From Saprospiraceae bacterium (GTDB lineage Bacteria; Bacteroidota; Bacteroidia; Chitinophagales; Saprospiraceae), in the NCBI GenBank assembly GCA_020627705.1, contig JAHDGJ010000006.1:1-64000 (forward strand): 64,000 nucleotides of DNA, given 5' to 3'. Numbering within the stretch: position 1 is the first letter of the stretch; the number at the start of each line of letters is the position of its first letter. The translations under genes were made by a program, and so were the position numbers. The notes under the pieces were generated by a model. That model saw nothing but the letters and a program-made list of their open reading frames with translations, had not been told where the DNA came from and did not search any database. Positions 2 through 16,252 of the stretch are shown in pieces.

Positions 2-2870
2 ACTTGTGGAGAAGACAATGGAAGTGTGAGTGTGAGTGCGACAGGCGGAAGCGGATCATATACCTATGCATGGAGCAATGGCTCATCAGATGCAACACAA
101 GATAATTTGTCAGCAGACGATTATACAGTTACCGTAACGGATGCTGCGGGCTGTACAGATGTCTCAACGGTAACCGTAGGTTCTAGCGAAAGCCCAGTGG
201 CTAGTGCTAGTTCAACAGATACCAGTTGTGGAGAAGACAATGGAAGTGTGAGTGCAAGTGCGACAGGTGGAAGCGGAAGTTATACCTATGCATGGAGCAA
301 TGGTTCATCAGATGCAACACAAGATAATTTGTCAGCAGGCGATTATACAGTTACCATAACGGATGCTACGGGCTGTACAGATGTATCTACAGTTACTGTT
401 GGTTCTAGTGAAAGTCCAACAGCAAGTACGAGTTCAACAGATACAAGTTGCGGGGAAGAATCAGGAAGTGTCAGTGCGAGTGCCACAGGTGGAAGCGGAA
501 GTTATACCTATGCCTGGAGCAATGGTTCATCAGATGCAACACAAGATAATTTGTCAGCTGGTGATTACACTGTTACGATTACAGATTCAGCAGGCTGTAC
601 CGATGTTTCTACAGTATCTGTAGGATCGAGTGATAGCCCAGTGGCCAGTGGTAGTGCCACGGATACCAGTTGTGGAGAAGACAATGGAAGTGTCAGCGTT
701 AGTGCAACAGGCGGAAGCGGAGGATATACCTATGCATGGAGCAATGGCTCATCAGATGCAACACAAGATAATTTGTCAGCAGACGATTATACAGTTACCG
801 TAACGGATGCTGCGGGCTGTACAGATGTCTCAACGGTAACCGTAGGTTCTAGCGAAAGCCCAGTGGCTAGTGCTAGTTCAACAGATACCAGTTGTGGAGA
901 AGACAATGGAAGTGTGAGTGTGAATGCGACAGGCGGAAGCGGATCATATACCTATGCATGGAGCAATGGCTCATCAGATGCAACACAAGATAATTTGTCA
1001 GCAGGCGATTATACAGTTACCGTTACGGATGCTGCGGGCTGTACAGATGTATCCACAGTTACTGTTGGTTCTAGTGAGAGCCCATCAGCAAGCGGTAGTG
1101 CCACCGATACAAGTTGCGGGGAAGAATCAGGAAGTGTCAGTGCGAGTGCCACAGGTGGAAGCGGAAGTTATACCTATGCCTGGAGCAATGGTTCATCAGA
1201 TGCAACACAAGATAATTTGTCAGCTGGTGATTACACTGTTACGATTACAGATTCAGCAGGCTGTACCGATGTTTCTACAGTATCTGTAGGATCGAGTGAT
1301 AGCCCAGTGGCCAGTGGTAGTGCCACGGATACCAGTTGTGGAGAAGACAATGGAAGTGTCAGCGTTAGTGCAACAGGCGGAAGCGGAGGATATACCTACG
1401 CATGGAGCAATGGTTCATCAGATGCAACACAAGATAATTTGGCTTGTGGAAATTATACGGTAACTGTTACCGATGAAACAGGTTGTACAGATGTTGTAAC
1501 GGTAATAGTCGAATGTAGTGAAAGCCCAACGGCAAGTACGACATCAACCGATACGACTTGTGGAGAAGATAATGGAAGTGTAAGTGTTAGTGCAACAGGT
1601 GGAACAGGAGGGTATACCTATGTTTGGAGTAATGGTTCTACTAGTGCAGATCAGAGCAATCTGCCTGCTGGTGATTATACAGTGACTGTAACAGATGCAG
1701 CAGGCTGTACTGATGTTTCTACAGTATCTGTTGGTGATTCGGCAGATGGACCAGAAATTTTGGTTTTGGTTGTACATACAACATGTAATTATGAAAATGG
1801 TTTCGCAGACGTTGTAGTGACCGGTGGTACTCCTGGATATACATTTGAGTGGTCAAATGGAGATACTGATACTTGGGTTGGAAGTTTGGCTCCTGGTGAT
1901 TATTCAGTGACAGTAACTGATGCAGCAGGTTGTTCAACCGTAGCGAATTTCGAAATTGAAGGTTCAGAGGTAGGACCAGAACTTACAGTAGTAGGTTTGG
2001 ATGGTACTTGTGGAAAAGACAATGGATCGATCAGTGTATCAGCTACTGGCGGAGAAGGTCCATATGAGTTTACTTGGACCGGAGGATTGACAGGAACTTC
2101 CCTTGAAAATCTTGGAACTGGATTATATGGAGTGACAGTAACAGATGTAAATGGTTGTATTGATTACGGTGGATATTATGTTAATGTTGGTGAAAGCCCT
2201 GAATTTGCCAATACAGATATTACAGATGCAAGTTGTAGCGAAAATAATGGTGCAATTGATATTGAAGTAGTACAGGGTATAGCACCATATAGCTATGCAT
2301 GGAGTAATGGAGCAACTACGCAGGACTTAGAAAATATTTCTGCTGGCGAGTATACAGTTACCGTCACGGATTCTGAAGGGTGTATAATTGAACAAACGGT
2401 GACCGTAGAAAATATAACAGATATGTCTATCAGTATTGATGGGACAAACACGTGTTGTGGTTTGGATAATGGTGAAGCTACACTAAGCGTACAGTGCGCT
2501 ATGGATCCTACTTCAATTCAATGGAGTAATGGAGAAACCAGTGCAACTATTTCAGATTTAGCGCCAGACTTATATACTGTGACAGTAACGGATGCCAGCG
2601 GACAAAGTGAGGTTGCTTCTGTCTTAATTGAAGGATCAAATGGGCCTGACGCCACTGCAGTTTCTACGGATACCGAATGCGGAAGTGCTAATGGTTCGGC
2701 TACTGTAACAGCAACGTCAGGTACAGGTGATTATACATATGAATGGAGTAATGGATCATCAGAGCCAACAATAGATAATTTGCCAGGCGGTACTTATACT
2801 GTAACTGTAACAGATGAGAAAGGATGTACAGATGTAGTATCTGTTGAGGTAGGTGGAAGTATCACACCAG
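2..2870 (+). repeat. Tandem SprB-type coding repeats, 222-225 bp period
   Basis: The Cys codon block that opens each unit recurs at 2, 224, 446, 668, 890, 1112, 1334 and 1556, an exact 222-bp period. It then continues at 1781, 2006, 2231, about 2450 and 2675 in more diverged form. Units 1-3 resemble units 4-6 more closely than their direct neighbours, giving a 666-bp higher-order period. The stretches 441-730 and 1107-1396 look identical by eye. Confidence 0.95.
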
Positions 2871-4378
2871 ATGCAGGTAATTTGACTGGTGGACCTTTCC
2901 ATTTCTGTGTAGACGGTGAGGCAGACTTTGTAGGTGGTATTTCTGTTTCTGGAGATGCTGGAGACTTTTCAACCTTTGTGATCACTGATTCGGATGGAGA
3001 AATATTGGGGCTTCCAGGATCTTTAGATGATCTGGAATCTGTAGATTTCGATGGTGCTGGATCTGGCGTATGTATTATTTGGTATTTAACGCATAGTGGT
3101 GATATTCAAAATCTTGCCGTTGGGCAAAATGCTTCTGATCTTTCTGGATGTTTTGACATCTCGGGACCTATCGAAGTAGTCCGTGAAGGTTTAGAACCAG
3201 TTGCCTCGTGTGTAACGTTTGATTTAAACGCATGTCAAGCAGATACTAATTATTCTGAATTTACTCCATCTATAGACAATGCAGCCGGATGTACTACTTT
3301 TAGTGTACCTGCAGGAAACATTTCAACAGATGTTACTCATTCTTGTACACCTGGTGTAAATGGAACGGGTATGTGCTTCGCAGCGAATACTTCTTGTGAC
3401 TATGATCCAAATACACCTGCGAAATTGACCATTCCTGTGCGCGTTAGTCCTGGAGACTTAGGAGATGGATTTATTTCGGGAATTTCGTTTTATGAGCAAG
3501 CACCTGATATGTTTGTTTGGACGGATGGGACTTCTGGAGTAAACAATTATCCAACGCTTTATGCTATTAGAGTGCTAAAAGCTGGAACCTTAATCTATGA
3601 AGAGACTGGTATTTCGACAGAATTGGATTGGAACTTGGAAGAATTTGATTTTAGTAGCGATTCCAATTTCTCTGTTTCGTCTCCAACAGACTTTACAATA
3701 GAGCTTATACCTTATTGCACAGCTGATAATGGAGCAACGAGTATAGGAGTTTGGGATATTGACGAAATCAAGATTTTCTCAAATTGCACCAATAATGTAG
3801 AAGGCGGAACATTGAATGGATCAGGACCTTATGACATTTGCTTGGATCAGTTATCTGATTTTATTACTGACATTAGCCTTACTGATAATGAAGGATACAA
3901 TGATATTTTAATAACAGATGCTGATGGTGGTATTATCGCAGTACTTGATGACCTAAACGCGTTGTCTACTTTTGATTTCAATAATGGCGAGGTAGGCTCA
4001 TGTTTTATTTGGAACTTAAGCTATTCATTAGGATTTGGCGGTATTTCGGCTGGTCAAAATGTTTCAGAATTAGCGGGATGTTATCATTTATCGAATTCGA
4101 TAGAGGTAATAAAAACCGAATGTGGAACACGGATTTCGATCGCACCAAACCCGGTAATAACTGAGTTGACCTTATCTGTCAATACCCCTGAATATGATCA
4201 AGTAAATTATCTGATCCTAGATAATTTAGGGCGAGTAGTTTTAAGAAAGAACATTCAAGATAATGCAAGTAGAAAAGTATTGATCAAAGTTGATGATTTA
4301 GATGCTGGGCAATATCACATACGAGTTGTTACCGGAAAACATTATTCTTATACGACAAGTTTTATAGTAGTCAAATAA
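2..4378 (+). CDS. SprB-repeat surface adhesin, T9SS secreted (5' end outside window)
   Basis: The frame is open from the first bases, so the N-terminus lies upstream of the window. At least 13 consecutive units of 74-75 residues (to about position 2870) match the SprB repeat pattern: CGEDNGS, then ATGGSGxYTYAWSNG, then YTVTVTDxxGC. The first eight are nearly identical and 222 bp apart; the last five are diverged. Two copies of another Cys-containing module (about 2878-3187 and 3802-4120) flank a beta-rich stretch. The last 80 residues look like a type A T9SS sorting domain (APNPV at its start, then LDAGQYHIRV). SprB-like proteins are carried across the outer membrane and serve gliding or adhesion; that role here is inferred from the family. 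A strong terminator follows the stop. Confidence 0.93.
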   Translation, partial: TCGEDNGSVSVSATGGSGSYTYAWSNGSSDATQDNLSADDYTVTVTDAAGCTDVSTVTVGSSESPVASASSTDTSCGEDNGSVSASATGGSGSYTYAWSNGSSDATQDNLSAGDYTVTITDATGCTDVSTVTVGSSESPTASTSSTDTSCGEESGSVSASATGGSGSYTYAWSNGSSDATQDNLSAGDYTVTITDSAGCTDVSTVSVGSSDSPVASGSATDTSCGEDNGSVSVSATGGSGGYTYAWSNGSSDATQDNLSADDYTVTVTDAAGCTDVSTVTVGSSESPVASASSTDTSCGEDNGSVSVNATGGSGSYTYAWSNGSSDATQDNLSAGDYTVTVTDAAGCTDVSTVTVGSSESPSASGSATDTSCGEESGSVSASATGGSGSYTYAWSNGSSDATQDNLSAGDYTVTITDSAGCTDVSTVSVGSSDSPVASGSATDTSCGEDNGSVSVSATGGSGGYTYAWSNGSSDATQDNLACGNYTVTVTDETGCTDVVTVIVECSESPTASTTSTDTTCGEDNGSVSVSATGGTGGYTYVWSNGSTSADQSNLPAGDYTVTVTDAAGCTDVSTVSVGDSADGPEILVLVVHTTCNYENGFADVVVTGGTPGYTFEWSNGDTDTWVGSLAPGDYSVTVTDAAGCSTVANFEIEGSEVGPELTVVGLDGTCGKDNGSISVSATGGEGPYEFTWTGGLTGTSLENLGTGLYGVTVTDVNGCIDYGGYYVNVGESPEFANTDITDASCSENNGAIDIEVVQGIAPYSYAWSNGATTQDLENISAGEYTVTVTDSEGCIIEQTVTVENITDMSISIDGTNTCCGLDNGEATLSVQCAMDPTSIQWSNGETSATISDLAPDLYTVTVTDASGQSEVASVLIEGSNGPDATAVSTDTECGSANGSATVTATSGTGDYTYEWSNGSSEPTIDNLPGGTYTVTVTDEKGCTDVVSVEVGGSITPDAGNLTGGPFHFCVDGEADFVGGISVSGDAGDFSTFVITDSDGEILGLPGSLDDLESVDFDGAGSGVCIIWYLTHSGDIQNLAVGQNASDLSGCFDISGPIEVVREGLEPVASCVTFDLNACQADTNYSEFTPSIDNAAGCTTFSVPAGNISTDVTHSCTPGVNGTGMCFAANTSCDYDPNTPAKLTIPVRVSPGDLGDGFISGISFYEQAPDMFVWTDGTSGVNNYPTLYAIRVLKAGTLIYEETGISTELDWNLEEFDFSSDSNFSVSSPTDFTIELIPYCTADNGATSIGVWDIDEIKIFSNCTNNVEGGTLNGSGPYDICLDQLSDFITDISLTDNEGYNDILITDADGGIIAVLDDLNALSTFDFNNGEVGSCFIWNLSYSLGFGGISAGQNVSELAGCYHLSNSIEVIKTECGTRISIAPNPVITELTLSVNTPEYDQVNYLILDNLGRVVLRKNIQDNASRKVLIKVDDLDAGQYHIRVVTGKHYSYTTSFIVVK

Positions 4379-8433: not shown

Positions 8434-8473
8434 AATCTACGTGATTTAGTCGTGTGTTAAAAATTTGAAAGTT

Positions 8474-8502
8474 TTGCAACCTTTGGTATAATTTTCGTCG
8501 TA
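8474..8502 (+). promoter_or_regulatory. Candidate ECF-sigma promoter upstream of the sigma gene
   Basis: TTGCAACC (8474-8481) is followed after exactly 17 bp by CGTA (8499-8502) and then TTAGTT. The same two blocks with the same 17-bp spacing occur at 10305-10333 before the DUF4382 lipoprotein. The layout resembles the -35 (AAC core) and -10 (CGT core) elements of ECF sigma factors, so autoregulation by the adjacent sigma factor is inferred. Confidence 0.6.
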
Positions 8503-8518
8503 TTAGTTGAGAGAACTA

Positions 8519-9079
8519 ATGAATCCCGAAATAAATATTGAAGGGCTTCTTCTAAATGATAGAAGCACTCAAAAAGTGTTTTTCAAACACTTTTATGGCT
8601 ATGTAATGTCCATTGCATTACGTTATTCCAAATCTAAAGAGGATGCGGATGAAATTTGCAGTGATGCTTTTTTGAAAATTTTCAATCGTATTCATCAGTA
8701 TAATCAGCAGTTTCCCTTGAAACCATGGATTAGTAGAATTGTGGTTAACACTGCTATTGACAAATACCGTAAGGATTTAAGTAAGATTAAACTTGAACCC
8801 TTAGAATTGGCTGCCGATATTTCAGCCGAGCCCCAAAATTGGACGAGTAAATTAGACGAAGGGAGACAAATCATAACTGCTATTCACACATTACCTGAGC
8901 GCTATCGCTTGGTTTTTAATCTCTATGTTTTCGAGGGCTATGGGCATAATGAAATTGCACAAAAACTTGAAATTGCAGTTGGGACTTCAAAATCTTGCTT
9001 AGCAAGAGCTCGAAGTATAATCAGAAAAGAACTTAATAACTCCAAACTTAAAATTCATGTCAATGCAACAGGAATTTAG
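8519..9079 (+). CDS. RNA polymerase sigma-70 factor, ECF subfamily
   Basis: Sigma region 2 spans about residues 20-90 (DADEICSDAFLKIF and PWISRIVVNTAIDKYRK). Region 4 spans about residues 125-180 (LPERYRLVFNLYVFEGYGHNEIAQKL plus the GTSKSCLARAR recognition helix). The long alignable linker is typical of Bacteroidota ECF factors. ATG 8519 is chosen over the in-frame TTG at 8507, because 8507 lies on the promoter-like motif. Its 3' end overlaps the next gene by 23 bp, which implies translational coupling with that membrane protein, the likely anti-sigma partner. Confidence 0.93.
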   Translation: MNPEINIEGLLLNDRSTQKVFFKHFYGYVMSIALRYSKSKEDADEICSDAFLKIFNRIHQYNQQFPLKPWISRIVVNTAIDKYRKDLSKIKLEPLELAADISAEPQNWTSKLDEGRQIITAIHTLPERYRLVFNLYVFEGYGHNEIAQKLEIAVGTSKSCLARARSIIRKELNNSKLKIHVNATGI

Positions 9080-10304
9080 AGAATTTAAAAAAAGATATTT
9101 TCAAGAATTGGAAATAGACAATGCTGAATTGGCATGGCAAAAATTTCAAGGCAAATTTGATTTAATGGAAGGGGATTCCACCCAAGATAAAAGAGCTTGG
9201 CCTATTTATATTTTATGCTGTAGTATTTTTATTGGTGCCTTGGGATTGTTGTTTGTTTTTCTTTTTGCTCCTCTAGAAGAGTCTTTCAATCAATCTAGAT
9301 ATAATCATGTTGCCAATATGTTAAAATTGGATTCAGATGCTCCAGTTCAAGAGATTGCAAGTATAAAATATTCTGATTCAAATCAGCTACACCATATAGA
9401 ATCCAACAATTATTCGGCTGAATTATCTCAGTCTGGGTTTGAATCCGAAGCATTGGAAAGAAAAATAGAAGAAAAGGAACATTTCCCTTTATTAGAAAGT
9501 ATTCCAATTGGAGCTAATAATATTTTTAATACCTCTCAATGGCAAGATTCTAATTCTAGCAATAGAATGGACAAGAAAGTGCCAAACTATAAGGTTGAGG
9601 CTAAGAACAAATCAATTTCAATCAATGCATTGCCCATTAAATATTTGTTTTTCGAAAGACCAGAAATTAAATCGAAAAAAATTCAGTTAATCAACAAATC
9701 TTATGTTGTTGATCCAGCGAATGAAACATTTGTAGTTGCACAGGCCGGTGTAGCAAACTTGGTTCATAGATCAACACATCAAAGTTTCGAACAAAGTTTT
9801 AAACTCTCTTTAATGCACAAGACTAAATCTGGCATTTTCATCAATACAGGATTTGGAATTAGTAAATGGAACATCAAATCAAGAGTTAATAGTTTGGATT
9901 TGAGAATTGATGGTTTGCAACTGTCTCAGGTTAAAGGAGCTATTTCGGACATTCATAATTCGATTTCTTTAGGAGAGGTAAATATTAGTTTGGGATATTT
10001 AATACCACTGCACAAGCGTCTGTCAGGTTTTGTAGCACTAGGAGCATCCCAAAGGTGGAGTTTTAAGAAAAGAACAAAGTATTTGATGGTTGATGAATTC
10101 AATAATGATGCATCCATAGATCTTAGTCAGGGCGATAACTATAAATATCCTCTATATTCTGGATTTTCGTTTGGAATAAATTATTTCATGAATTCTAAGA
10201 TGGAATTGTCTTTGGCTCCTTTTTATTCTAGGGTTATCCAAAAATCAGATTTAATACATCCCAAGTTGCTAGGTATGAATTTGGGAATAAAAATTAGAAC
10301 CTAA
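9057..10304 (+). CDS. Membrane protein coupled to the ECF sigma factor; barrel-like C-terminus
   Basis: The protein has 415 residues. The N-terminal 46 are charged and probably cytoplasmic (FKKRYFQELEIDNAELAWQKFQGKF). One strong transmembrane helix covers about residues 47-71 (IYILCCSIFIGALGLLFVFLF). A low-complexity periplasmic linker of about 170 residues follows. From about residue 245, alternating beta strands (GIFINTGFGISKW, VNISLGYLIPL, GFVALGASQRWSF, PLYSGFSFGINYF, ending NLGIKIRT) resemble small outer-membrane barrels. The 23-bp overlap with the sigma gene and the topology suggest an anti-sigma factor that may reach across the periplasm. No known anti-sigma domain is recognisable, so that role is inference. 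Confidence 0.72.
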   Translation: MSMQQEFREFKKRYFQELEIDNAELAWQKFQGKFDLMEGDSTQDKRAWPIYILCCSIFIGALGLLFVFLFAPLEESFNQSRYNHVANMLKLDSDAPVQEIASIKYSDSNQLHHIESNNYSAELSQSGFESEALERKIEEKEHFPLLESIPIGANNIFNTSQWQDSNSSNRMDKKVPNYKVEAKNKSISINALPIKYLFFERPEIKSKKIQLINKSYVVDPANETFVVAQAGVANLVHRSTHQSFEQSFKLSLMHKTKSGIFINTGFGISKWNIKSRVNSLDLRIDGLQLSQVKGAISDIHNSISLGEVNISLGYLIPLHKRLSGFVALGASQRWSFKKRTKYLMVDEFNNDASIDLSQGDNYKYPLYSGFSFGINYFMNSKMELSLAPFYSRVIQKSDLIHPKLLGMNLGIKIRT

Positions 10305-10333
10305 TTGCAACCTATTCCTTATAATCTTACGTA
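10305..10333 (+). promoter_or_regulatory. Candidate ECF-sigma promoter upstream of the DUF4382 lipoprotein
   Basis: TTGCAACC (10305-10312), then 17 bp, then CGTA (10330-10333) and ATAGTT. It begins immediately after the stop codon of the membrane protein and 14 bp before the lipoprotein ATG. It matches the element at 8474-8502 in both blocks and in spacing. Both copies also carry TATAAT within the spacer, shifted by 2 bp. Confidence 0.6.
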
Positions 10334-10346
10334 ATAGTTATTATAA

Positions 10347-11927
10347 ATGAGAACTAAAATGAACATGAAAAGATTTTTTTACTTGATTTTATCGTTTTGC
10401 ATTTTTCTGATTGCGTCATGTAGTGACGATGAAGGTAATAGCCCAGAAGAAGTCAAAGCGGTCAATATTTATTTAACTGATTGCCCTTTTGAGGCAGATG
10501 AAGTAAATGTTGAGATTTTAGGAGTTACCATAGAGGATATGGATGGCTTTGAAATCGAATTAAACACAAATGTTGGAATATATAATTTGCTAAATTTTCA
10601 AGATGGGGTGGATACCTTATTGGCCTCAGGTAATGTAGACGTTGAGGATATCGATAACATATATTTTGAAATTGGAGATCAAAATAGCATCGTGGTAGAT
10701 GGCGTTACATTTCCACTCGAATTGCAAGGGGACAATATTGTTAAAGTGAAAATTGACTTAAGCAATGTGTCCAGTATAGAAGACTTGTTAGTAGACTTTT
10801 TCGCTTGTACTTCAATAATTCAAAAACAAGGAGGGTATTTTTTAAAACCAGTAATAAAGTATAAGGGTAAGAAGGGTGAAGATTATGATGATCTAATTGA
10901 GGATTTATTGGAAGATTTTGAAGAATGCTATGATTTGGTTTATCCCTTGGGTTTAATAGATACTACGGGTGCAATAGTTCAAGTTGAGACTGATGATGCA
11001 TTGGTAGAGGCTCTTGTATCTGGAGCGATAGTTAATATTGCTTATCCCTTTGATTTGATAGATGAGAATGGTGTTGTATCTACTATAGGATCAGAAGATG
11101 ATTTGGAGGATTTAGAAGATTGTGACGAGGACAATGAAAATGACAATGACGAGGAGGAAGAAGATATACTAGAATTTCTTGAAGAATTAGAGGATTGCTA
11201 TTCTTTGGTTTACCCTGTTGGTTTGGTTTCAATTTCAGGGGATATTTTCACTGCGAATGATGAAAATGAGTTATCGAGTATAATTGATGTTGAGGAGATT
11301 AGTTCTTTGGTATTCCCTATTTCAGTTGCGAATACTAACGGAGAATTATTTGTTTTAAATGAATTAAAGGACGAAGATGATTTGGATGATTGTGATGACG
11401 ATGATGACGATGAAATAGAAGATTTTGAGGAATTCGCTATAGAGGTGATTGAATGTTATGAATTCATTTTCCCAATCTCTTTTGTAGATATTGATGGCAA
11501 TCAAATAGAAGTTCTTGATTCTAATGAGTATTTACTTGCATTGGAAAACAACGAAATAGCAGATTATATTTATCCATTTGATGTAATAAAGCAAAATGGA
11601 ACTCAATTTACTTTGAATCAGACGAATCAACTCAATGCGCTTAACGATTGTGAAGAAGACGATGATGATGACGACGACGACGATAATGATGATTTAGAGG
11701 ATTTATTAGAAGAATTAGAGGATTGCTATGACTTGATTTATCCTATTGTGTTTTCTGGGGAAAATGGAATAAGCTATACCGCGAATAATGAAGATGAGCT
11801 TGAAGACTTATTAGATGATGAAGATTTAACCGATATAATTTATCCAATTTCTGTTTTAGATTCTGATGGTAATACTCTTAATGCAGAGAATGAGGAAGAA
11901 GCATTAGCACTACTGGATAACTGTTAA
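10347..11927 (+). CDS. DUF4382 lipoprotein with acidic Cys-bounded repeats
   Basis: A lipoprotein signal ends in LIASC (Cys25), with acidic SDDEG after it. Residues 38-170 match DUF4382 (VNIYLTDCPFEADEVNVEI, then a hydrophobic beta domain). Four repeats of 80-95 residues start near residues 178, 272, 354 and 448. Each contains two half-units with a YP(I/F/L) core (CYDLVYPLGLID, then YPFDLID..NG) and is bounded by two Cys (ECY and DC). Asp/Glu-rich linkers, one with nine Asp in a row, separate them. Such acidic linkers suggest calcium binding or flexibility; function is unknown. Three ATG codons (10347, 10359, 10365) are possible starts. Confidence 0.85.
   Translation: MRTKMNMKRFFYLILSFCIFLIASCSDDEGNSPEEVKAVNIYLTDCPFEADEVNVEILGVTIEDMDGFEIELNTNVGIYNLLNFQDGVDTLLASGNVDVEDIDNIYFEIGDQNSIVVDGVTFPLELQGDNIVKVKIDLSNVSSIEDLLVDFFACTSIIQKQGGYFLKPVIKYKGKKGEDYDDLIEDLLEDFEECYDLVYPLGLIDTTGAIVQVETDDALVEALVSGAIVNIAYPFDLIDENGVVSTIGSEDDLEDLEDCDEDNENDNDEEEEDILEFLEELEDCYSLVYPVGLVSISGDIFTANDENELSSIIDVEEISSLVFPISVANTNGELFVLNELKDEDDLDDCDDDDDDEIEDFEEFAIEVIECYEFIFPISFVDIDGNQIEVLDSNEYLLALENNEIADYIYPFDVIKQNGTQFTLNQTNQLNALNDCEEDDDDDDDDDNDDLEDLLEELEDCYDLIYPIVFSGENGISYTANNEDELEDLLDDEDLTDIIYPISVLDSDGNTLNAENEEEALALLDNC
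11652..11693 (+). repeat. GAN triplet microsatellite coding for poly-Asp
   Basis: Fourteen consecutive triplets (GAA, GAC, GAT, one AAT) encode the Asp-rich linker between the third and fourth lipoprotein repeats. Shorter GAY runs sit in the other linkers (about 11120-11160 and 11379-11412). Slippage here would change length in frame. Confidence 0.85.
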
Positions 11928-11958: not shown

Positions 11959-12006
11959 TAAGGAAAGTGCGTTTATTGCCGACGCGCTTTCCTTTATTTT
12001 TTTTTA
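11959..12006 (+). terminator. Rho-independent terminator after the DUF4382 lipoprotein
   Basis: The arms AAGGAAAGTGCG and CGCGCTTTCCTT pair with one G-T wobble and a loop of about 11 nt. A T-rich run with ten T follows. It ends 50 bp before the converging VTC gene. Confidence 0.88.
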
Positions 12007-12055: not shown

Positions 12056-12667
12056 TTACAAGGCAATTAAACTTATTCCCGTAGCATATTTTGAATATTT
12101 TGTTTGCCTAAAGGGCAAAAACTTATTGAGTTCATCAAAATATATAAAGTCTTCCTTTGCAAATTTTATTTCTAAAATGAGACGATCTTCTTGCTGCATG
12201 ATGTTTTGATTTTGAGGATGCCGAAAGGAAAGTTGTGAATCCAAGGTGATTCTAAATTTTTTATCTGTACTAATCCAATATCTCCTTCTGTATTGATTGA
12301 TTAAAGTTGGTGTAAGATCAAAATTAAAAATTCTTTGAGTTGAAATATAGTCTTCAAGTTTTTGATAGGAGTCAAATGACTGGGCGATATATTTTTTACT
12401 TCCCAATTGATTGGATTTTGATTTAATCTCGAATTGGCCCTTAGACATATCTTCTATATCATTATACCAGCGATACCTAAGCTTCGTCCTATGTGGATCT
12501 CCATTTATATTTTGATAAAACCAGAGTAAATCACTAGTATCGAAATAAACATTATTAACAACTCTATCTGGAAAAGCAGGATAGAATGAAAATGGATGAT
12601 TGATGATTGCTTGTTTTACAATTTCTAGATCAACAATGGAAAGCGCATATTTGATTTCGTATCTCAT
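12056..12667 (-). CDS. VTC-domain protein (polyphosphate polymerase family)
   Basis: The protein has 203 residues and starts with MRYEIKYAL, the usual opening of VTC domains (RxExKY). It then shows YFDTSDLLWFY, TKLRYRWY, FEIKSKSNQ and RYWISTDKKFRITLD, the conserved basic and acidic residues of the triphosphate-tunnel fold. Eukaryotic VTC4 makes polyphosphate; what bacterial single-domain members make is not settled. The longer open frame to 12739 is rejected, because this ATG follows the upstream CotH stop by only 7 bp. It is the last gene of the DUF4956-CotH-VTC operon. Confidence 0.88.
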   Translation of the reverse strand: MRYEIKYALSIVDLEIVKQAIINHPFSFYPAFPDRVVNNVYFDTSDLLWFYQNINGDPHRTKLRYRWYNDIEDMSKGQFEIKSKSNQLGSKKYIAQSFDSYQKLEDYISTQRIFNFDLTPTLINQYRRRYWISTDKKFRITLDSQLSFRHPQNQNIMQQEDRLILEIKFAKEDFIYFDELNKFLPFRQTKYSKYATGISLIAL

Positions 12668-12674
12668 TTTGCGC

Positions 12675-15581
12675 CTATGGAAAGATGATTTCAGAATTGT
12701 CTTCTTTGAGCTCCAGGTATTTGTTTCCAGTTTCCTCAAATTTCAGAATATTGATTTTCCCTGGTCCATACTCTGGTTTTTTTTGATAAGCAGCAAATGC
12801 TTTGTTGCAGTTTGAAACGCTAGCATATTTAACCGTTACCTTACTCAGGTCTTTGGAAGCAATACCAATATCCGCAACATCAATGTAGGCTTTATCAACG
12901 GTAATCGTTGCCTGTTCTCCTGCGCTTATTGCTTTATCCGAAATATTTTCGAAGGTACAATTTTCAACGGTAATGGTGCTTCCAGAAAAATCAAAGGCAT
13001 CATTACCAGTACGCTGAGATAAGGAATTTTTTATAGTCCCAGTACAGAAGTCAGCATCAAAACCGTCGGAATACGTATCTGCAAGAAAAATATAATCAAT
13101 ATCAAAATTTGAGCGTATAATATTGAGCGCATCTTCGCAATAGTTTGAAGAAAATTGAGATTGCTTTATAGAGACATCTGATTCATAAAAACTTACGGCT
13201 CCTGTCATAAAGTAATTTCCTAAATCTAAATTATCTAACTCCGAAAATTTACAATGGTTTAGACTTGATTTGCCCTGAGCGTTTAGGACAAGAAGGCCTT
13301 GTCCACTTTTGTCACTGGAGTAAATGTGTATTGGATTTTCTTTTGTTCCTTTAAAGTGTATTCTCGATTCGCTAAGAATGTAGGCCTTGTTAGTTAAGTC
13401 TAAAGAAGTCCCAGGCTCGATTATAAAATTCATCTCTCTAGGGATTTTGATGGGTTGAGTTACCACATACTTACCACTCAGTAATATTATTTGATCTTTG
13501 GTGATCTTTACATCTTGACTTTCAAACGGTACTTGAAGTGAACTAACGGCTTTTTTTGTAAAATCGACCTTATGGGCAGATGGCCAATTTTTTATTTGTG
13601 TAAAGTGAATTTGATCCAAACCTAAAACTTTAAAGTAGAGTACATTGTCACCTGTAGGAACGGAAATGCTTTTGTATTCTGGCGCTTTATTGGGATGGTT
13701 GCTCCAAAGGTTTTGTTCCAAAGGATTTAAAGATGTTGGGTTAGCCGAAACTTCATTGCCAGAGCCAATAATTTCGATTGGTAAATGATGATAGTTCGAA
13801 ACGTTTAGAATTTTTTCATTGGCAGTGGTTTGCATGACAAACGCCTTCAAACTAATGTTATTCATCGCAGGGAGAGAGGCCTGGATCGTTTTGCATTTTG
13901 TATAAATTTCCTTTTTGTTTAAGTTATACTCTGGGTAGTATTGATTTATAAGATGAACTCTGGAGTCCAAATCCTCTTTTATCTCGTTTAAGTAGTTTTC
14001 TATAAATTCGGGAGAAGAATATTTGTTAAGGTAAGCGGCAAATTTGCTTGCAAAAGTTTTATTGCGATAAAGAATGCTGTAGTATTTTGCCCAATCATCA
14101 ACGTATTTGTTGGATTTATAAAAACCGAAACAATTATCTTTTGCTACAATATCATACGTTCCGTTTTCGATGAATCCATCATAACCTACGGGCTCTAATT
14201 TTCTGGACACCGGGTTGTAATAAAATCGATGGTTATGCCAAACCATACTGTGATAAGCTCGCAGTATTTCTACAATGGCATAGTATCGAGCCATTTTGTC
14301 TAGATCAAAAATGTTTTCAGCTGGTTGCAAGTTATGTTTATATGCATACATCAGTTCTTGCGCTTCATTGAATTGTTTGAGCAAACTGCTGTCCTTCACA
14401 ATTCTACTTGCCCGAAACGGTTCTATATCCGAAATATATTTTGGATTAATAAGCGGGGCATCATGATGTCCAACGGCCTTTTTTGATCTTATTCTTTGTT
14501 CCCAAGCAGCGTCTTCCGTAAACTTTAGTAGAACGCCTTCTCTTCTTGAATTGGATTCCGGTAGGTGTTTATCGAAGTGTTCTTCGTAGGCATACAATTC
14601 TGATACTCTATCATTTAGTTTGAGCTTTACGAAATCATATTTAGTAGTAAGAATGTCTTCAGATTGTAGAAAATTATGAAACAACCACTCGTGTGCAAAA
14701 AATCTTCTTTCTGGACTTTGTAAAGAAAAAGTTTGCATTCTGTTCCATGCATTGTCGCTGGCAGTTTTGATTCGATAGGACCAATTGGTCCCTAAGAGGT
14801 GATCCGTCCAGTCGCCTTTCAGTCGTATTTTGACTTTTTGCGTTTGATTTTCGTCTTTGAGCTTAGCATTTGCATAAGTTCCGTCGTTTACTAGGATACC
14901 ATATTTAAATGCTTCCGTCCTTGCGTCCTCTAATTTTTTATAATTTTTAGGATCTATATAGAGACTAAGATTTGGCGTTTGATAGGCAAGAGTGTTAGAC
15001 TTTAAGCTGTCTTTCGAAATATATTTAATCTCGAAGTCATCAAAATAACTGTGCGCTGTTTTGTTTAAGCTGTAAGGAAAGACTTTGATAGAACTTAAAC
15101 TGTTGTTATTGGGAATGGTAACGCAGAGATTTAATTTGTCCCAACCATTTTGATCCGTTTCGTCTGCAACATTTGTTTGCATCATAAAATCGGAGCCCTG
15201 ATTTCCTTGAAATGCCAAGTAGCCGTTTCCAGCAACTGGTGAACTACGCCATATACTTGCACAAAGTTGGTCTCCTTCGTTTACAGTAGTTAAATCATAT
15301 CTTGGCCCATATTGACGTTGAGCATCCAATTTGCTGCTGTATTTTCCGGTACGTGGATATTCATTGCTACGGGTATGGCCATTCTGAAAGATGTATTGTC
15401 CATTTACAAATGTGTTGTCCTTCACTTTTTCCATACTGGTGGAAACAGTAGCAGAATGGCCTTTGGACTTACTTTTTTTTGCAAGCCAATAAAACGTCAA
15501 TGCCAAAACCAAAAGCAAAGGAATGCTCCTTTTTAACAGTACATTGGTTTTTGATGGTCGCTGATCATTCTTTATGATCAT
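12675..15581 (-). CDS. CotH-like kinase fused to a right-handed beta-helix, membrane anchored
   Basis: The protein has 968 residues. A signal anchor lies near residues 14-32 (SIPLLLVLALTFYWL). A beta-sandwich carbohydrate-binding-like region covers about 60-190. The CotH region covers about 200-560 (VKIRLKGDWTDH, QSPERRFFAHEWLFHNFLQ, LYAYEEHFDKHLPESN, REGVLLKF, GYDGFIENG). From about 690 a right-handed parallel beta-helix appears (NCKFSELDNLDL, CTFENISDKAIS). CotH proteins are atypical secreted kinases in spore-former coats; here it probably acts in the periplasm. Its ATG overlaps the DUF4956 stop by 4 bp (ATGA), so the two are translationally coupled. Confidence 0.85.
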   Translation of the reverse strand: MIIKNDQRPSKTNVLLKRSIPLLLVLALTFYWLAKKSKSKGHSATVSTSMEKVKDNTFVNGQYIFQNGHTRSNEYPRTGKYSSKLDAQRQYGPRYDLTTVNEGDQLCASIWRSSPVAGNGYLAFQGNQGSDFMMQTNVADETDQNGWDKLNLCVTIPNNNSLSSIKVFPYSLNKTAHSYFDDFEIKYISKDSLKSNTLAYQTPNLSLYIDPKNYKKLEDARTEAFKYGILVNDGTYANAKLKDENQTQKVKIRLKGDWTDHLLGTNWSYRIKTASDNAWNRMQTFSLQSPERRFFAHEWLFHNFLQSEDILTTKYDFVKLKLNDRVSELYAYEEHFDKHLPESNSRREGVLLKFTEDAAWEQRIRSKKAVGHHDAPLINPKYISDIEPFRASRIVKDSSLLKQFNEAQELMYAYKHNLQPAENIFDLDKMARYYAIVEILRAYHSMVWHNHRFYYNPVSRKLEPVGYDGFIENGTYDIVAKDNCFGFYKSNKYVDDWAKYYSILYRNKTFASKFAAYLNKYSSPEFIENYLNEIKEDLDSRVHLINQYYPEYNLNKKEIYTKCKTIQASLPAMNNISLKAFVMQTTANEKILNVSNYHHLPIEIIGSGNEVSANPTSLNPLEQNLWSNHPNKAPEYKSISVPTGDNVLYFKVLGLDQIHFTQIKNWPSAHKVDFTKKAVSSLQVPFESQDVKITKDQIILLSGKYVVTQPIKIPREMNFIIEPGTSLDLTNKAYILSESRIHFKGTKENPIHIYSSDKSGQGLLVLNAQGKSSLNHCKFSELDNLDLGNYFMTGAVSFYESDVSIKQSQFSSNYCEDALNIIRSNFDIDYIFLADTYSDGFDADFCTGTIKNSLSQRTGNDAFDFSGSTITVENCTFENISDKAISAGEQATITVDKAYIDVADIGIASKDLSKVTVKYASVSNCNKAFAAYQKKPEYGPGKINILKFEETGNKYLELKEDNSEIIFP

Positions 15582-16252
15582 AAAATAATCTCAGGTTGAT
15601 CAACAATAGAAATTTGGGCAGAAGGGTCTAAATTAAGAATCGCATTTTTGGTTGATTCAACACTATTTATGTCTTCTATTTTAGAAACCAAGCTGTAAAA
15701 ATATTCTCCATTTTTAACATCCATTCGTTTAAGTTCTAAGTACTTTAAATCTCTTGAAATGGCTTCAATAAGCTCGGTTGAATTGGCAATTTTGGTATTG
15801 ATGTTAATATGGGTTTTGCCCCTAAGTGTTTTGGACTTATTGGAATATCTCGCATTAAGATAGAGTATAGGCAAAATAACGGCAAAACTCAAAACAGCTA
15901 GAATCGGTTTGTTTGCTCCACCGACAATTCCAAGTCCTATAATTAGAAATAAATAGGTAAGTTCCTCAGGATCTTTGATTGCTGCCCTAAAACGTACAAT
16001 CGATAATGCTCCAACCAATCCTAGAGAAAGCGCAATGGAAGATTTGATTACCGTAATAATCAATAAGGTAGCTAGCGCTAACGGAAGAAATATTTTGGCA
16101 AATTTTCTACGATCAGACAGTGCATGTGCAAAGCGGATATAAAATTGTTGCACACCCAAGGCTAACAAAGTGACTACTAGAAAATTGACAAAAAAATCTT
16201 GAAGATTTATTGTTGCGTTAAAGTCTGATAGATATTTTTCAAATTCCAGCAT
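15578..16252 (-). CDS. DUF4956 membrane protein
   Basis: The protein has 224 residues. Four transmembrane helices lie in the first 130 residues (FFVNFLVVTLLALGVQQF, IFLPLALATLLIITVI, LTYLFLIIGLGIVGG, PILAVLSFAVILPILYL). The DUF4956 hallmark LGLVGALSIVRFRAAIKDPEE sits between helices 2 and 3. The C-terminal 80 residues form a small soluble ferredoxin-like domain. DUF4956 is repeatedly found beside VTC and CotH genes in bacteria, and this is the first gene of that operon here. Molecular function is unknown. Confidence 0.9.
   Translation of the reverse strand: MLEFEKYLSDFNATINLQDFFVNFLVVTLLALGVQQFYIRFAHALSDRRKFAKIFLPLALATLLIITVIKSSIALSLGLVGALSIVRFRAAIKDPEELTYLFLIIGLGIVGGANKPILAVLSFAVILPILYLNARYSNKSKTLRGKTHININTKIANSTELIEAISRDLKYLELKRMDVKNGEYFYSLVSKIEDINSVESTKNAILNLDPSAQISIVDQPEIIL

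Follow-up and report, generated by a model that had tools for sequence, protein, structure and literature searches.

A predicted Das/Dma-type sigma factor module with a repeated promoter element in a Saprospiraceae genome

Genes of the locus

The locus described here lies within a 64,000-nucleotide stretch of DNA from a Saprospiraceae bacterium (contig JAHDGJ010000006.1, positions 1 to 64,000), referred to below as the window, and comprises three consecutive plus-strand genes followed by a terminator-like hairpin. The first gene (8519..9079) starts with ATG and encodes a Das-like ECF sigma factor, in which Sigma70_r2 and Sigma70_r4_2 score above their Pfam cut-offs; its score against TIGR02985 is 91.4, under the cut-off of 126.4. 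The protein is 46% and 45% identical to its syntenic copies in the related genomes G002 and G114, respectively. A TTG codon at 8507, in frame with the sigma reading frame and 4 bp 3′ of the −10 block described below, is unlikely to be the start.

The second gene (9057..10304, plus strand), which the sigma gene overlaps by 23 bp, encodes a Dma-type protein of 415 residues for which a Pfam and NCBIfam scan returned no match. An AlphaFold model built from 25 sequences predicts N-terminal helices at residues 2–17 and 23–39 (Trp27 is invariant in all 25 aligned proteins), a membrane helix at residues 47–70, placed in the most hydrophobic stretch of the protein (hydropathy 2.74 across 17 residues starting at residue 52), a disordered tether (pLDDT below 50 for residues 88–220, with neither helix nor strand in 90–222), and an OmpA-like barrel at residues 218–415, with nine strand elements between residues 223 and 414. 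The full model served as query in the fold search, and the rows of the Foldseek listing concern the barrel; among these matches, residues 218–415 align with the OmpA, NspA and OprF barrels with Z values of 15.8–16.5 and rmsd values of 2.1–3.2 over 133–164 residues. The tether lowers the mean confidence of the model to 68.1; from residue 221 on, 12 of 20 ten-residue blocks exceed 90, the lowest standing at 50. The model contains the single membrane helix, long tether and C-terminal barrel by which the Dma family is recognized. Members of that family also bind sigma through their N-terminal domain, for which the helices within residues 2–39 are a candidate here, repress the cognate sigma, and are encoded beside a sigma factor of the ECF21 group, the neighbour in the window being an ECF sigma gene. 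The Das1-Dma1-NigD1 and Das2-Dma2 systems of Bacteroides thetaiotaomicron have a sigma gene adjoining the gene of an anti-sigma factor with an N-terminal domain, a membrane helix, a disordered tether and a C-terminal barrel (PMC13088901), and the domain order predicted for the window's middle protein is that published for Dma2. The product of the middle gene is predicted to span both membranes and to be laid out like a Dma-type anti-sigma factor, with an outer-membrane barrel.

The third gene (10347..11927, plus strand) is the target candidate, a lipoprotein with a lipobox-like IASC sequence and a DUF4382 domain at residues 39–168 (PF14321, E 6.7e-14; homologues aligned), for which ATG 10359 may be an alternative start. 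Its repeats consist of paired C-Y...YP half-repeats separated by long Asp/Glu-rich runs, and both its length and its repeat number differ among relatives. The acidic runs might bind cations. The NigD Pfam model gave no match to this protein, DUF4382 being the only domain found at E up to 0.1, and a structure model built from two sequences reached a mean pLDDT of 53.7, too low for a fold search. DUF4382 proteins are present in 28 of 100 family genomes and are matched in Thermotoga, Haloferax and Sulfolobus as well, so that the domain is not confined to Bacteroidota. Downstream of the lipoprotein gene, a hairpin with a 14-pair stem and a T tail (11960..11994, plus strand) is the probable end of the module, its weight as evidence being small when taken alone, since the region has two such sites and shuffling gives 1.9.

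A bipartite element repeated within the locus

Two 29-bp sites of the form TTGCAACC-N17-CGTA are found on the plus strand, one (8474..8502) as the predicted promoter of the sigma gene and the other (10305..10333), starting immediately 3′ of the stop codon of the Dma gene, as the predicted promoter of the lipoprotein gene, both assignments being based on the exact match and on the relatives considered below. The original prediction described these sites accurately: each matches with zero mismatches and has a 17-bp spacer, the −35 block GCAACC occupies 8476–8481 and 10307–10312, the −10 block CGTA occupies 8499–8502 and 10330–10333, and the latter is followed by TTAGTT at the first site and ATAGTT at the second. 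The distance from site to start codon, which had been given as 14–16 bp, is in fact 16 bp for the sigma gene (ATG 8519) and 13 bp for the lipoprotein gene (ATG 10347). A TATAAT hexamer does lie in both spacers as claimed, but it is out of register, offset from the −35 block by 5 bp in one site and 7 bp in the other, a 2-base shift, and none of five related sites, aligned with the two from the window, has it in the spacer. GCAAC and CGTA are identical in all seven aligned sites, an invariance due partly to selection, most of these sites having been located via the motif. That TATAAT is outside the element was missing from the earlier reading, as was the Dma-type domain order of the middle gene.

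The exact element is rare. A search of the 3.7 Mb genome for TTGCAACC-N17-CGTA returned exactly two perfect matches, both at this locus, in keeping with the proposed pairing, and the window contains the shorter GCAACC-N17-CGTA two times, where 100 shuffles gave a mean of 0.05 and never as many as two. Loosened patterns show no such excess, with 48 matches at up to three mismatches in the window, where 40.4 are expected, and 230 matches at up to two mismatches in the genome against 296 in the reversed control. With loosened patterns near or below their controls, the signal resides in the exact blocks.

A set of 21 near matches in the window's genome was inspected individually, comprising 15 one-mismatch matches to TTGCAACC-N17-CGTA and six further TGCAAC-N18-CGTA sites. 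Nineteen of them fall, on one strand or the other, inside open reading frames 150 aa or longer. Of the other two, C26:69919 is positioned 65 bp before a gene named by eye as ExbD-like, and the second is neither inside a reading frame nor before a gene. GCAACC-N16..18-CGTA occurs at nine sites in the genome and at ten in the reversed control; four of the nine are outside reading frames and before a gene, two of these being the window's own. A wide regulon, considered as an explanation, was set aside, as there is no sign of one at the stringency used, most near matches lying inside reading frames and the counts standing at chance level. Given the site before the ExbD-like gene and a similar one at C31:183011, the regulon is perhaps not entirely private, and the second of these sites would allow cross-talk. 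This second one, a GCAACC-N16-CGTA site, follows another Dma-like gene and precedes the next sigma reading frame by 197 bp.

On the same contig (G000:C31:180929-183769; L240, L241, L271), two Dma-type sigma loci are arranged in tandem with this GCAACC-N16-CGTA site between them, an arrangement suggesting that Dma systems may feed one another.

Conservation in Saprospiraceae

An initial search with the Dma protein in 40 genomes gave a single match besides the window's own, in G002 of the same genus, and a first contig scan with the single sigma as query gave none. G002 has the three genes in common with the window, with TGCAACC-N17-CGTA before the sigma gene and TGCAAC-N17-CGTA, its spacing one base shorter, before the lipoprotein gene. 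A survey of DUF4382 proteins located two further cases: G114, a member of another genus, has the same three genes and TGCAACC-N17-CGTA before both the sigma and the lipoprotein gene, and G065 has GCAACC-N17-CGTA before the lipoprotein gene on a contig that stops short of the sigma gene. The Dma proteins of these three other founding loci are 17–27% identical to that of the window.

A profile of the four founding Dma proteins matched in 38 of 398 family genomes, and loci from 24 of these (the four founders and 20 others, chosen by Dma similarity and not by motif) were read. GCAAC-N17..19-CGTA was found upstream of sigma in 18 of 22 loci, two of the 24 having no scorable sigma upstream; 18 of 24 carry it in the 250 bp that follow Dma, and 14 of 22 have both sites. 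As the 24 loci are related by descent, these counts are not independent events. The rest of those loci supplies a background of three matches in 296,948 strand-bases, or 0.0026 per 260 bp. Excluding the founders leaves the element before sigma in 15 of 19 loci and after Dma in 14 of 20. By eye, several of the strict misses (four of the 22 sigma upstreams and six of the 24 post-Dma stretches) are one-change or 16-bp-spacer variants. The element is kept as the gene behind Dma varies, being followed by repeat DUF4382 lipoproteins, a PepSY-like lipoprotein (L139) or a TonB-dependent receptor (L140); at another locus (L147) a PepSY-like lipoprotein gene is next, and the strict motif stands before sigma only.

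Lipoprotein homologues away from such a unit provide the complementary view. Two repeat-lipoprotein homologues, in G020 and G112, had no sigma or Dma match in the 8 kb read, and the element is absent from the 250 bp upstream of their genes. Among 19 DUF4382 loci read more widely, a Dma-like gene adjoins in G114 and G065 only, and the other 17 (G020 and G112 included) have no GCAAC...CGT directly upstream on the coding strand; for one of them, G088, the contig holds only about 575 bp upstream, and a sigma gene may be located farther away. The paired element thus tracks the sigma–anti-sigma unit within the family and is absent before two lipoprotein homologues with no sigma gene close by. The module is accessory, since the window's Dma protein finds no match in a genus mate, G001 (98% complete); a DUF4382 protein is absent there as well.

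Distribution across Bacteroidota

Beyond the family, a scan of named genomes was evaluated for the best 80 of 570 confirmed stretches, 79 of which have a clear sigma (in L224 no sigma reading frame exceeded the score limit). In these best 80 of 570, a partner of 283–578 aa, in some cases cut by the contig end, is found downstream of sigma in 79 of 79, and a hydrophobic stretch near the partner N-terminus in 78 of 79. Still within the best 80 of 570, GCAACC precedes sigma in 37 of 79 loci against about 5 expected (background 0.0585 per 260 bp), and follows the partner in 6 of 77 against about 4.5 expected, which is near background. For complete elements in the same best 80, ten of 79 loci have GCAAC-N17..19-CGTA before sigma and two of 77 have it behind the partner; GCAAC-N15..18-ATCT stands before sigma in 16 of 79 and behind the partner in 0 of 77, with about one expected in each place. 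One of the two double matches (L153) is the G114 locus again. Among the best sigma matches of 28 further genomes (L005–L032, one per genome), the strict element precedes sigma in six of 28 and follows the partner in none, the partner end being in view for about half.

Inspection by eye of the best 80 of 570 suggests a −10 block that varies with clade: Saprospiraceae and several Cytophagales have CGTA, many Flavobacteriaceae have ATCT, and ATCA- or TGTC-like blocks occur elsewhere. Counted mechanically in 101 loci, of which 78 are named ones out of the best 80 of 570 and the others come from the family set, the block is CGT[A/G] in 31, ATCT in 16, ATCA-like in 7, TGTC in 2 and none of these in 45. 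Judged from these patterns, self-activation via a GCAACC −35 block looks widespread in Bacteroidota. A paired code extending over the whole phylum was tried and discarded, GCAACC after the partner (6 of 77 in the best 80 of 570) being at about background. These near-background counts restrict the paired layout to the family, and a second promoter directly behind the anti-sigma gene looks like a trait of Saprospiraceae, mostly of the closer Dma relatives.

A more general proposal, which we advance tentatively and with the odds somewhat against it, is that over much of Bacteroidota Dma-type sigmas activate themselves by a single shared grammar (a GCAACC −35 with a clade-specific −10, which is CGTA in Saprospiraceae and several Cytophagales, ATCT in many Flavobacteriaceae and different again in other groups), and that in Saprospiraceae it forms a portable cassette, with a second promoter copy behind the anti-sigma gene serving an exchangeable gene for a DUF4382 lipoprotein, a PepSY-like lipoprotein or a TonB-dependent receptor. 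Were this cassette reading true, the barrel may sense the state of the surface protein made by the module.

A contig titled Beijerinckiaceae (L227), which is probably a mis-binned Bacteroidota contig, also has a GCAAC...CGTA element together with an ECF sigma gene and a membrane partner of 503 aa.

Proposed mechanism and alternative explanations

The locus is most readily understood as a self-contained Das/Dma-type signalling module, in which a presumably autoregulated sigma factor would have a local lipoprotein target, and we assign this reading a probability of about 0.86. The suggestion of an autoregulated ECF sigma factor acting on a lipoprotein gene two genes downstream is thus supported by comparison within the family. 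The sequences themselves show that the element is present twice, that relatives in the family keep it at both positions, that the middle protein is predicted to have a Dma-type domain order, and that the lipoprotein gene comes next. As would be expected of an autoregulated ECF system, the same bipartite element precedes the sigma gene and the target candidate.

From general ECF biology and from the Das/Dma work in Bacteroides (PMC13088901), we infer the holding of sigma by Dma, the nature of the signal and promoter activity; the role of the lipoprotein is likewise inferred. The N-terminal domain of the Dma-like protein would retain the sigma factor at the inner membrane, and the tether of this protein would run through the periplasm to a barrel in the outer membrane that belongs to the same chain. 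On sensing a signal, the barrel or the tether would release the sigma factor, and RNA polymerase carrying it would then read GCAACC-N17-CGTA at two places. The promoter before the sigma gene would raise sigma and anti-sigma together, providing positive feedback with a built-in brake, and the promoter directly behind the anti-sigma gene would switch on the lipoprotein.

Both sites could be promoters and still be read by other ECF sigmas of the genome, making the locus part of a network rather than a private module. In favour of this unlikely reading, sigma-like loci number 30 in the genome, and 16 of these are followed by a partner of at least 400 aa; the tandem C31 loci carry a site of their own, and weaker variants occur in two more sigma upstreams (L235, L246). 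Against such a network, the window locus is the only one of the 30 with GCAACC-N17-CGTA within 200 bp upstream of its sigma gene, and the exact 29-bp matches are confined to it.

Conservation of a motif does not by itself identify the binder, and an activator or repressor other than sigma might recognize the element. AAC/CGT-type blocks are typical of ECF promoters, however, and here they are located at promoter spacing just 5′ of genes; moreover, the element goes with the sigma–Dma pair across genera as the neighbouring genes change. Region 2 of sigma factors reads the −10 element, and when loci with CGTA are compared with those having ATCT or ATCA-like −10 blocks, 14 of the 15 most divergent sigma positions fall in residues 30–96 of 190, a comparison that phylogeny confounds. 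Another regulator in place of sigma is accordingly very improbable. Slightly less probable again is an ordinary promoter, in which the housekeeping sigma reads the spacer TATAAT and the two sites share their blocks by coincidence. TTGAAA-N16-TATAAT at 8465–8492 does score 11 of 12 in a sigma-70 scan, yet sigma-70-like sites in the region number 16 against 19.7 expected and so show no excess, the main sigma of Bacteroidota uses a −7 element of another kind, and the register shift of TATAAT and its absence from the five related spacers stand against GCAAC and CGTA blocks shared by all seven sites (partly by selection, as noted above).

Relation to known systems

In SigW-RsiW and RpoE-RseA, a sigma factor held by a membrane anti-sigma factor activates its own operon via a bipartite promoter. 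The window's sigma resembles them in having a bipartite promoter and a predicted membrane anti-sigma factor, and differs in that this anti-sigma factor is predicted to cross both membranes alone. In cell-surface signalling of the FecIR type, a signal from an outer-membrane barrel passes to a cytoplasmic ECF sigma factor. A similar path is proposed here, except that in the window's module barrel and anti-sigma factor would be one protein.

In the Das/Dma systems of B. thetaiotaomicron, loss of Dma2 raised expression of its own operon and of neighbouring genes (PMC13088901). The window's module differs from these systems in its likely target, which is a DUF4382 repeat lipoprotein rather than the NigD-like protein of Das1-Dma1-NigD1, in having no known link to vesicles, and in the repeated promoter element described here at both genes. 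A limited literature search met no promoter sequence for Das/Dma-type systems. A readable promoter code would allow direct targets to be predicted and a simple two-promoter reporter test to be set up, and it points to DUF4382 lipoproteins as signal-controlled surface proteins.

Other features of the window

Downstream of the module, the minus strand at 12056–16252 carries consecutively a VTC-domain gene, a 968-aa reading frame and a DUF4956 gene; the 968-aa reading frame has no Pfam match at E 0.001, and we take it to be CotH-like. At the start of the window (26–4378) is a 1450-aa SprB-repeat protein with near-alike repeats and a C-terminal sorting domain for type IX secretion.
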